Both the position numbers and the translations under genes were made by a program. Shown here piece after piece: positions 40,303 through 42,802 of a DNA stretch of 64,000 bases. The stretch's first letter is position 1; each line of letters opens with the position of its first letter. The notes under the pieces are model-generated. The model worked only from the letters and a program-made list of their open reading frames with translations, did not search any database and was not told the DNA's origin. This DNA comes from Pseudoxanthomonas sangjuensis (lineage in GTDB: Bacteria; Pseudomonadota; Gammaproteobacteria; Xanthomonadales; Xanthomonadaceae), in the NCBI RefSeq assembly GCF_010211755.1, contig NZ_PDWR01000012.1, forward strand, positions 1 through 64,000, written 5' to 3'.

Positions 40303-40983
40303 TCATGCGTAGCGCGTCGGATCGGCCACGCCGGCGTCGGCGAACCCCTGCGCGCGCAGGCGGCAGGCATCGCAGTGGCCGCAGGCACGGCCGTCGGCGT
40401 CGGCGCGGTAGCACGACACGGTCTGCGCGAAATCCACGCCCAGGCGCGCGCCTTCGCGGACGATGTCGGCCTTGCTCAGGCGGATCAGCGGCGCCTGGAC
40501 GCGCAGGCCCGCGCCTTCGACGCCGGCCTTGGTCGCCAGGTTGGCCAGCTTCGCGAAGGCCTCGATGAATTCCGGCCGGCAGTCCGGGTAGCCCGAGTAA
40601 TCGACCGCGTTGACCCCGCAGAAGATGTCGCTGGCGCCGAGCACTTCGGCCCAGCCCAGCGCGATCGACAGCATCACCGTGTTGCGCGCCGGCACGTAGG
40701 TGACGGGAATGGCCGCCGCGTTCGGATCCTTGTCGGTATCGACCGGCACCTCGATGTCGTCGGTCAGCGCCGAGCCGCCGATGCTGCGCAGGTCGACGTT
40801 CACCGTCTTGTGCGCGACCGCGCCGAGCGACTGCGCCACGCGCGCCGCGGCCTCCAGTTCCGAAGTATGGCGCTGGCCGTAGCTGACGCTGAGCGCGTGG
40901 GCGGCGAAACCCTGCTCGCGGGCGATGGCGAGGACGACGGCGGAATCCATGCCGCCGGAGACGAGGACGACTGCTTTTTTCAT
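40303..40983 (-). CDS. queC: 7-cyano-7-deazaguanine synthase QueC
   Basis: A 226-aa ATP-dependent enzyme converting CDG to preQ0 for queuosine synthesis. The PP-loop motif [13 protein letters not shown] is at the N-terminus (residues 6-18). [18 protein letters not shown] and [19 protein letters not shown] are family signatures. Zinc ligands lie in [20 protein letters not shown]. Starts at ATG 40983. Downstream partner of queE, but separated from it by about 205 bases that contain the tRNA-like element. Confidence 0.97.
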
Positions 40984-41079
40984 CGCATTAAACTTGAAAT
41001 TAAAGATTTAGAGGGAGTCATAACCATTTCTGCCCGCCATCCAGCGAGACAGGAATACGGCGCGGCAGCAACTCAAGGA

Positions 41080-41168
41080 GCCGACGACAGGGCTTGAACC
41101 TGCACCCTTCCGGGATATCCCATGGAGACCACTGTAGTGGTACGTCTACCAAATTCCGTCACGTCGGC
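41080..41168 (-). pseudogene. tRNA-Leu-like element lacking an anticodon (tRNA pseudogene or tRNA-like RNA)
   Basis: Reading from 41168 downward: acceptor GCCGACG pairs perfectly with CGTCGGC; TG spacer; D-stem ACG/CGT around loop GAATTTGGTAGA (class II, Leu-like); A; a 5-bp stem CCACT/AGTGG with only AC as loop; a 25-base variable region that can fold as CC-GGG-ATAT-CCC-GG; T-stem GCAGG/CCTGT with consensus loop TTCAAGC; then TCCT instead of a CCA end. A normal tRNA would have a 7-base anticodon loop in place of AC. It starts 21 bases after queE and ends 96 bases before queC. It may be a decayed tRNA or a tRNA-like processing/regulatory element. Confidence 0.8.
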
Positions 41169-41188
41169 GAAAACGATTGTGTAGCTTC

Positions 41189-41869
41189 TTACCTGCCCGG
41201 CTCGTCGTTCCAGAGCAGCTTGTGCAGTTGCATCTGGAAGCGTACCGGCAGGCGGTCGGCGACGATCCAGTCGGCCAGGTCGCGCGCCGGCAGTTCCGAC
41301 TTGCTCGGCGAGAACAGCACGTCGCAACGCTGGTCCAGCCCGTGCTCACGGACCACGTCGCGCGCCCATTCGTAGTCGGCGCGGCCGCACAGCACGAACT
41401 TGACCTGGTCGCGCGCGGTCAGCAGCGGCAGGTTTTCCCAGCGGTTGCGCCCGGCCTCGGCCGAGCCCGGCGTCTTGATGTCGAGCACGCGCGACACGCG
41501 CGGGTCGACCGCGGCGATGTCGATGGCGCCGGACGTCTCCAGCGACACGTCGTGGCCGGCGTCGCACAGCCGCTTCAGCAGGCCGATGCAGCGTTTCTGC
41601 GCCAGCGGCTCGCCGCCGGTCACGCAGACGTGGCGCACGCCGTAACCGGCGACCTCGGCCAGGATGTCGTCGATCTCCCGCCACTTGCCGCCGTGGAAGG
41701 CGTAGGCGGTATCGCAGTACTGGCAGCGCAGCGGGCAGCCGGTCAGGCGCACGAACACGGTCGGCCAGCCGACGGCGTCGGCCTCGCCCTGCAGCGACAG
41801 GAAGACCTCGGTGATCTTCAGCCGGTCGAGCGACGACTGCACGATTTCGCTGGGAACGGAAAAGTCCAT
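41189..41869 (-). CDS. queE: 7-carboxy-7-deazaguanine synthase QueE
   Basis: A 226-aa radical-SAM enzyme making 7-carboxy-7-deazaguanine from CPH4. The cluster motif C-x3-C-x2-C is TGCPLRCQYCDTAYAFHGG (residues about 43-61). GEPL in VCVTGGEPLAQK binds SAM. FLSLQGEADAVGWPTVFVRL precedes them. ATG 41869 (MDFSVPSE) is chosen; an upstream TTG frame would run through the repeat pair. Next gene on the strand is queC, with the tRNA-like element in between. Confidence 0.96.
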   Translation of the reverse strand: MDFSVPSEIVQSSLDRLKITEVFLSLQGEADAVGWPTVFVRLTGCPLRCQYCDTAYAFHGGKWREIDDILAEVAGYGVRHVCVTGGEPLAQKRCIGLLKRLCDAGHDVSLETSGAIDIAAVDPRVSRVLDIKTPGSAEAGRNRWENLPLLTARDQVKFVLCGRADYEWARDVVREHGLDQRCDVLFSPSKSELPARDLADWIVADRLPVRFQMQLHKLLWNDEPGR

Positions 41870-41878
41870 GCGCCCATT

Positions 41879-41954
41879 GTAGAGCGGGGCTTGCCCCGCT
41901 GCCTTGGCTTGCATGTCGGAAACGGCGAGAGCAGCGGGGCAAGCCCCGCTCTGC
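41879..41954. repeat. Inverted pair of GTAG-type REP elements
   Basis: Two 22-base arms (41881-41902 and 41931-41952) are exact reverse complements, with a 28-base spacer. Each arm is itself a hairpin, AGCGGGGC-TT-GCCCCGCT. The left copy is headed by GTAG (41879-41882); the right copy, read in reverse, by GCAG. GTAG-headed REPs are known from Stenotrophomonas and relatives, where RAYT transposases mobilise them. This is the only pair seen in the window and no RAYT gene is present. It lies between cpoB and queE. Confidence 0.88.
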
Positions 41955-41962
41955 GGCGCGAA

Positions 41963-42802
41963 TCAGCGGATGCTGCGGCCGAACTGGATCGATTTCAGGC
42001 GATCGTCGGCGGTACGGGCGACGTCGCTGCCGGGATACTTGCTGACCACGGTGGCCAGCGTGCTCTCGGCCTGCTCGACCTTGCCCAGGCCGTATTCGCA
42101 CAGGCCGAGCTTCAGCAGCGCGCCCGGCGCCTTGTCGTGGGTCGGATAGCGGCCCAGCAAGGTATTGAACTGGTCGGCGGCGAGCTGGTAGTTCTGGGTG
42201 ACGTAATAGCTCTCGCCCAGCCAGTACAGCGCGTTCGGCGCGTACACGCCGCCCGGGTACAGTTCGAGGAAGCTGGTGAACAACCGCGCCGAATCGACGT
42301 AGTTGCCGGCCTTCAGCGCGTCGAAGGCGACGTTGTAGGCGGCGCGTTCGTCGCCGGCCTGGGCCATCGCACCGACATCGCCATGCACCGACGGCGCGCT
42401 GTCGGCGGCCACGGCGGGCGCCGCCGCGGGCGCATTGGCCGCGGAAGGCGGCGCGGGCAGGGCCACCGGCGGCGCAGCGGAGGGCGGTGCACCGCCCTCG
42501 ATGCGGCTCAGGCGGCTGTCGAGGTCCAGGTACTGGTCGCGGTTGCGCTGCTTGAGCTGCTCGTTCTCGTTCTGCAACTGCTCGACCATGCCGCGCAGCT
42601 GGACAACCTCCCTGCGCAGCTGGTCCAGCTGGTTCAGCAGGTCGACGTTGCCGCGGTCGTTGGCCGCGCGTTGCTCCAGCGCGGCCACGCGGTCGGCCAG
42701 GCTGACGCGCTGCGCGTGCGCCGGCGCGGCGCCGAGGCCGAGCAGCACGGGAACGAGCAGCATGGGGGCGAGCGACGTGTGGAGCGGACGGAACGGATTC
42801 AT
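41963..42802 (-). CDS. cpoB: Tol-Pal-associated cell-division coordinator CpoB (YbgF)
   Basis: A 279-aa periplasmic protein coordinating outer-membrane constriction with PBP1b activity. Signal peptide (cleavage after AHA, about residue 30). A coiled coil (VSLADRVAALEQRA to LKQRNRD, residues about 33-90) forms trimers. An Ala/Pro-rich linker follows, then three C-terminal TPRs starting AYNVAFDALKAGNYVDSARL. ATG 42802. A terminator separates it from pal, so it may have its own promoter, and it heads cpoB-queE-queC. Confidence 0.95.
   Translation of the reverse strand: MNPFRPLHTSLAPMLLVPVLLGLGAAPAHAQRVSLADRVAALEQRAANDRGNVDLLNQLDQLRREVVQLRGMVEQLQNENEQLKQRNRDQYLDLDSRLSRIEGGAPPSAAPPVALPAPPSAANAPAAAPAVAADSAPSVHGDVGAMAQAGDERAAYNVAFDALKAGNYVDSARLFTSFLELYPGGVYAPNALYWLGESYYVTQNYQLAADQFNTLLGRYPTHDKAPGALLKLGLCEYGLGKVEQAESTLATVVSKYPGSDVARTADDRLKSIQFGRSIR

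Follow-up and report, generated by a model that had tools for sequence, protein, structure and literature searches.

A family of tRNA-like elements with a capped anticodon arm in Lysobacterales, partly located in integron cassettes

The tRNA-like domain of tmRNA has no anticodon. The elements described here also lack an anticodon, but they form a full cloverleaf with a D-arm, a capped arm, and a variable arm. In allo-tRNAs, an anticodon is present and the branches are 8/4 or 9/3, whereas the present elements have a 7/5 branch and no anticodon loop. tRNA-Leu is a class II tRNA with A15-U48 and a 3-bp D-stem, and the discriminator A73 is typical of it. The elements share with tRNA-Leu the class II cloverleaf, the D-arm GGAATTGGTA, A15/U48, and the T-arm, and they differ from it in having no 7-base anticodon loop and no A73, and in a longer variable arm (22-25 nt plus U48).

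The pseudo-tRNA tRNAOther from Bacillus cereus is presented in its description as a tRNA-shaped RNA working outside translation; it adjoins an island of foreign DNA and is transcribed within a larger RNA (PMC3399842). Non-translating tRNAs of this type are recognized by being expressed, poorly charged, and absent from polysomes. tRNAOther and the present elements are both bacterial tRNA-shaped RNAs with a proposed non-translational role. They differ in that tRNAOther has a Trp anticodon (PMC3399842), whereas the elements are class II, have no anticodon loop, and are partly found in integron cassettes. The tRNA-Sec-like allo-tRNAs are non-canonical class II tRNAs (PMC7609411). Non-coding RNA borne by an integron is described from Xanthomonas, where it is designated as sRNA-Xcc1 (RF02221), (PMC12444791), and the location in integron cassettes is common to sRNA-Xcc1 and some of the present elements. 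sRNA-Xcc1 and symE are described as opposite to the direction of Pc, whereas the capped elements lie in the cassette sense (PMC12444791). The main text of that paper contains no occurrence of tRNA.

The Rfam models of sRNA-Xcc1 (RF02221) and sX15 (RF02234) gave no match at the elements, and their matches lie elsewhere in the loci L214 and L219. These sX15 and sRNA-Xcc1 matches are located at L219 9954-10102 and L214 15861-15948, within several kb of two of the elements. No description of a capped-anticodon family was found among the papers listed from the open-licence PMC literature, which were covered by titles and the starts of abstracts, with subscription papers mostly outside. Because tRNA finders sort by anticodon, a tRNA-shaped RNA without an anticodon is easily missed.

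The element between queE and queC

The window (the whole analyzed stretch of 64,000 nucleotides from Pseudoxanthomonas sangjuensis) contains the following features, listed by coordinates and strand.

40303-40983, minus strand: queC, co-oriented and downstream (TIGR00364, 205.4 bits, cut-off 150.3)
41076-41079, minus strand: 3' end TCCT (U73 C C U instead of ACCA)
41080-41168, minus strand: body of the tRNA-like element, 89 nt, class II cloverleaf without an anticodon loop
41080-41086, minus strand: acceptor stem, 3' strand CGTCGGC, 7 bp with no mismatches
41087-41103, minus strand: T-arm GCAGG-TTCAAGC-CCTGT
41105-41127, minus strand: long variable arm, predicted from the alignment as an outer stem and an inner hairpin, with some broken cells
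41128-41141, minus strand: capped anticodon arm ACCAC-TACA-GTGGT, the tetraloop TACA closing a 5-bp stem
41142-41159, minus strand: D-arm, 3-bp stem ACG/CGT, loop GAATTTGGTAGA
41162-41168, minus strand: acceptor stem, 5' strand GCCGACG, paired with 41080-41086
41169-41188, minus strand: leader of 20 nt, from the queE stop codon to the element
41189-41914, minus strand: queE ORF, co-oriented and upstream (TIGR04349, 368.9 bits, cut-off 300)

The TIGR04349 match of queE begins at residue 32, and translation may actually start at a position further inside this ORF. Where the ORF begins, there is a perfect 20-base inverted repeat AGAGCGGGGCTTGCCCCGCT, with the arms at 41881-41900 and 41933-41952. 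Each arm is nearly palindromic, and the repeat resembles a repetitive element.

An earlier note, made from the sequence of the window, had described a near-complete class II cloverleaf on the minus strand. Its coordinates and sequence were verified, including GG in the D-loop and the T-arm. The comparison with a tRNA covariance model proposed in that note gave a match of the Rfam tRNA model RF00005 to 41079-41168 on the minus strand with 34.6 bits, above the gathering cut-off of 29. The e-value in the whole genome is 2e-5, and the element is thus more than a chance resemblance. The anticodon arm had been read as the stem CCACT/AGTGG closed by two bases. The absence of a 7-base loop in this capped arm holds, but the register is better taken as ACCAC/GTGGT with the tetraloop TACA, because the innermost T-A pair is missing in some relatives.

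The element was absent from a whole-window Rfam scan with fast filters, and ARAGORN gave no call for it. In single-sequence folding, it shows z = -1.10, and 26 of 200 shuffles fold equally well or better; the fold energy of the window element alone is not decisive. Its minimum free energy structure is not the cloverleaf, which lies 1.3 kcal/mol higher. Among the nine family members described below, the cloverleaf is the minimum free energy structure in four, and it lies 0.7-4.9 kcal/mol above the minimum in the remaining five.

The genome of P. sangjuensis contains 46 matches above the Rfam tRNA cut-off, 45 of them besides the element. The tRNA-Leu set is complete, with CAA, TAA, TAG, CAG, and GAG recognized by ARAGORN on 42 matched stretches, and thus the window element is not a needed tRNA. 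The host tRNAs inspected carry an encoded CCA. A fragment in the same genome (L176, C19:9303-9369) matches the 3' part of tRNA-Lys(CTT) and lies just before tRNA-Leu(TAG); it could be the remnant of an element integrating into tRNA genes.

Relatives with a capped arm and the conservation of their fold

With a covariance model of the window element alone, six further genomes with scores of 62.8-74.5 bits were found among the matches listed from 395 genomes of the bacterial family, and the next-best of the listed matches scored 52.2 bits or less. Among these lower matches, the nine inspected (L191-L199) have 7-base loops and are ordinary tRNA-Leu. Searching 398 genomes of the order with a seven-member model (E 1e-11) added the genomes G617 and G652. 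The eight relatives overall score 62.8-75.6 bits with the model of the window element alone. A covariance search of 369 genomes of the class gave no member besides that of P. sangjuensis, and 233 genomes of the bacterial family of G617 gave the same two carriers only. In the covariance searches of the family, order, and class, scoring was limited to the 10 or 11 top first-look candidates of each genome, and misses are possible. Carriers are 2 of 11 genomes in the genus of G259 and 2 of 5 in the genus of G150. In the genus of P. sangjuensis, no other high scorer was among the matches listed in the search of 395 genomes. The capped-arm family looks rare and patchy.

These relatives were not found with BLAST. 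Among the matches listed from 38 genomes of the genus at E up to 10, there were only short pieces besides the full-length match of the element to itself, and the best two pieces (L083 and L084), located after a recQ-like gene, were judged as chance. Phages and plasmids gave only pieces of 34% of the query or less in distant blastn searches with the window element and L188, some of these short pieces falling in phage tRNA genes. The sole pattern match in viral contigs (L220) lies in a large terminase-like ORF with no family-like continuation and was judged by eye as chance; two further patterns gave no matches in viral contigs. A phage or plasmid origin was set aside on these short pieces and this lone match. 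The phage, plasmid, and viral-contig searches consisted of blastn and patterns, and the covariance model was used on genomes only.

RF00005 scores 38.4-45 bits on five of the eight relatives, and it gives no match at E 0.1 in three of the nine members (L185, L186, and L190). ARAGORN labels three relatives as tRNA-???. A few kb off the element in the genome G284, there is a class II tRNA with a TCG anticodon (L218 5333-5427), which ARAGORN assigns to tRNA-Arg; a long variable arm is odd for tRNA-Arg.

The anticodon stem consists of 5 bp, is fully paired, and is closed by the tetraloop NNCA in all nine members. Double changes are seen at four of its five pairs, with all five pairs kept in every member. 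The six other arms are ACTAC-CTCA-GTAGT, ACTGC-CACA-GCAGT, ATCGC-TACA-GCGAT, ACCGC-CACA-GCGGT, GCCAC-TGCA-GTGGC, and ACCAC-CACA-GTGGT, and the last two members again have ATCGC-TACA-GCGAT. The seven acceptor pairs are intact in 9/9 members, with a single A-U pair replaced by G-U in one member. The D-stem is paired in all nine, and its first pair shows a double change from A-U to G-C in three. Across the whole structure, 99.1% of cells are paired and 8 pairs show double changes among the nine sequences, while 26-48% of cells are paired in slid controls. None of 500 shuffles reaches the observed covariation, a comparison in which the shuffles ignore relatedness and the sequences are only nine and related. 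RNAalifold, unprompted, predicted the same cloverleaf with the tetraloop, and eleven of its predicted pairs show kept double changes.

The mean pairwise identity is 0.98 in the acceptor, 0.88 in the T-arm, 0.80 in the D-arm, 0.67 in the anticodon stem, and 0.51 in the variable arm. This gradient indicates that the acceptor and the T-arm are held in sequence and the rest in shape only. With nine patchily found members, common descent may account for some of the acceptor conservation. C32, C35, A36, and G37 (numbered along the first sequence) are invariant in the alignment, and thus CAG is present in every capped arm. It is possibly a relic of the Leu CAG anticodon. The columns of A15 and U48 are also invariant and match the tRNA-Leu scaffold.

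Position 73, an A in tRNA-Leu, is G in six members and T in three, and this G/U73 was the reason for rejecting a leucine-charged tRNA. CC follows position 73 in seven of the nine members, with the final A in only part of these. CCA is encoded in four, and the window copy has TCCT. The base at -1 is a pyrimidine in all nine. None of the nine members has the 7-base loop and the anticodon of a translational tRNA.

Integron cassettes and the queE-queC locus

In the genome G231, an attC site ends 15 nt before the element, and the next attC begins 233 nt after the first base of the element. The corresponding distances in G617 are 17 nt and 215 nt. Both copies thus show the arrangement of an integron cassette, which carries an attC at its 3' end and is preceded by an attC or attI; no such arrangement was recognized at the window copy. 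The G259 copy has on one side an integron integrase gene (TIGR02249, 475.9 bits, cut-off 265), whose start lies 143 nt before the element on the other strand, and on the other side an attC that starts 256 nt after it. The five attC sites flanking these three copies have a single orientation relative to the element, as judged from the asymmetric inner motifs. The element is directed away from the integrase gene in G259 and G617, and cassette transcription usually runs away from the integrase gene. No convincing ORF was found in the cassettes of G231, G617, and G259, where the small frames have 71 codons or less and mostly run into the attC or the element.

The attC sites were found with a crude script, which is blind to orientation since the core motifs mirror each other, and for which one shuffle per locus gives 1-4 sites. 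It found 7 sites in L219, 13 in L223, and 1 in L216, the L216 shuffle also giving 1. The call in L216 rests on the canonical site sequence, a stricter first script (run with no shuffle), and the adjoining integrase gene. Near six of the nine elements, the one in the window included, the script recognized no attC. The copies of the window, G150, G218, and G284 are located outside arrays recognizable by the script, and in G213 and G652 only degenerate attC-like sequence was seen by eye.

Integron integrase matches were obtained from five of the nine carrier genomes, P. sangjuensis included, and from both added non-carriers, while the carriers G150, G218, G213, and G652 gave none at E 1e-20. The integrase ORF of P. 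sangjuensis is open over 339 aa. This gene (L231, C30) adjoins an ORF that resembles a CCA-adding enzyme by eye, and it is so close to the contig end that the cassette array is not visible. The leader of the window element and the cassette leader in G231 both contain AATCGTTT at a nearly equal distance from the element. As a link of the window copy to a cassette, this common motif is suggestive only.

In the queC regions of 80 named genomes, the model of the element gave no match at E 0.001; four of these regions extend less far before queC than was requested. QueC is present in 37 of the 38 genomes of the genus, and 30 loci were compared, that of P. sangjuensis included; nothing was found at the 29 others, and the window copy was recovered. 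The copy between queE and queC is a lineage-specific insertion. Because the element is absent from these 80 and 29 loci, its queuosine context is probably a coincidence. That the setting in a tRNA-modification operon is meaningful, as hinted at in the earlier note, gains no support at either set of queC loci, and the relatives sit elsewhere. That note had also named an unconserved spacer, together with missing transcript ends, as a refutation. As to the first half, the spacer itself is not conserved, but the relatives are conserved at other sites, and therefore an unconserved spacer is a poor test for a mobile element.

No promoter or terminator was recognized in 40950-42050, but the promoter scan has little power, since it is also empty in shuffles, with an expectation near zero. 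The queE-queC spacers of L007, L157, L158, L166, and others are filled by tandem GATTCCC heptamers of very different lengths, and the 420 bases compared of the L157 spacer are entirely tandem repeat. Several spacers of genus members agree by eye with those of named Pseudoxanthomonas loci (L152 with L009, L151 with L011), which places the window probably in or near that genus. The queE-queC spacer seems to be a tolerant place for insertion.

Possible nature of the capped-arm RNA

It is judged somewhat probable that the element is a non-decoding tRNA mimic mobilized by integrons, which would be cut from read-through transcripts and would act in trans on a putative partner via its acceptor and elbow. 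The window element belongs to a family of tRNA-like RNAs, rare, conserved, and non-decoding, in the order Lysobacterales; these RNAs have a tRNA-Leu scaffold, with a tetraloop substituted for the anticodon loop and G or U at position 73. Some members make up the content of ORF-less integron cassettes, and others, such as the copy at queE-queC, would have settled elsewhere on the chromosome, possibly from a cassette. The element would be co-transcribed with the upstream gene or array. The 15-17 nt between attC and element in the two clear cassettes leave no room for a full promoter within the cassette, which argues for transcription from upstream. The RNA would be excised by RNase P and 3' processing. 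Bacterial RNase P accepts a kept elbow and acceptor, a pyrimidine at -1, and CC after position 73, and since the elements retain these features (the pyrimidine in 9/9 and CC in 7/9), excision by RNase P is plausible from their sequences. Once released, the RNA would be small and stable and would mimic a tRNA, with its acceptor, elbow, and T-arm contacting a tRNA-binding partner. The kept acceptor and elbow, together with the absence of decoding and of A73, are best explained by a tRNA mimic. Action in trans is suggested mainly by the mobility of the element and its differing neighbors.

A role in cis would also make use of processing enzymes: as a substrate of RNase P and RNase Z, the element would cut the mRNA between the flanking genes, and the excised RNA would have no job of its own. 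This punctuation agrees with the sense orientation in the clear cassettes, with co-oriented queE 20 nt upstream of the window copy, and with the conserved acceptor, T-arm, and CC (7/9 members), but it is rather unlikely, because it leaves unexplained why compensatory changes preserve the pairing of the capped anticodon arm and why the element is the sole content of its own cassette. The calls of ORFs upstream of the G652 copy are mixed, and the long ones are divergent.

Charging of the RNA, with Ser or another amino acid as the G/U73 and the long variable arm would allow, and its use as an amino-acid donor outside translation is improbable. LeuRS and SerRS of Escherichia coli need no contact with the anticodon, and the complete acceptor, T-arm, and elbow, with CCA encoded in 4/9, would suit such an RNA. 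It would have to be reconciled with the five members in which CCA is not encoded, though the inspected host tRNAs carry it, and no constant transferase neighbor was noticed among the neighbors, which were viewed without family searches.

The elements are very unlikely to be pseudogenes that go back to the capture of a tRNA-Leu, a single loss of its anticodon loop, and drift ever since. Drift would account for the patchy distribution and for some copies whose 3' end is altered or whose flanking sites are degenerate; it would not account for the eleven RNAalifold pairs with kept double changes, nor for an anticodon stem paired in 9/9 members despite its diverged sequence. The opinion of the earlier note that a freely decaying pseudogene is unlikely is borne out by this structured element, whose stems are paired with compensatory changes in the relatives. 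A recent deletion in, or a misassembly of, a normal tRNA-Leu gene at queE-queC, the former having been among the suggestions of that note, is refuted by eight relatives with the same architecture, the same capped arm, and compensatory changes in it, and is further opposed by the absence of such an element at the 29 other loci of the genus and by the presence of all five Leu isoacceptors elsewhere in the genome.

If the preferred reading as a trans-acting tRNA mimic is followed one step further, it is conceivable, though doubtful, that a new class of mobile non-coding genes is represented here, in which integron cassettes would deliver a non-decoding tRNA that is freed by tRNA-processing enzymes from any host transcript. 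Such an RNA, having no anticodon, would be immune to anticodon nucleases, and it might serve as a decoy or stress regulator on tRNA-binding enzymes, or as an amino-acid carrier for non-ribosomal use. The nine sequences make the questions of processing, charging, and partner directly testable. With a conserved capped-anticodon tRNA that moves in cassettes, the cargo known from integrons would be extended by a structured RNA, and a natural molecule would be available in which what acceptor and elbow do in a tRNA can be studied apart from decoding.
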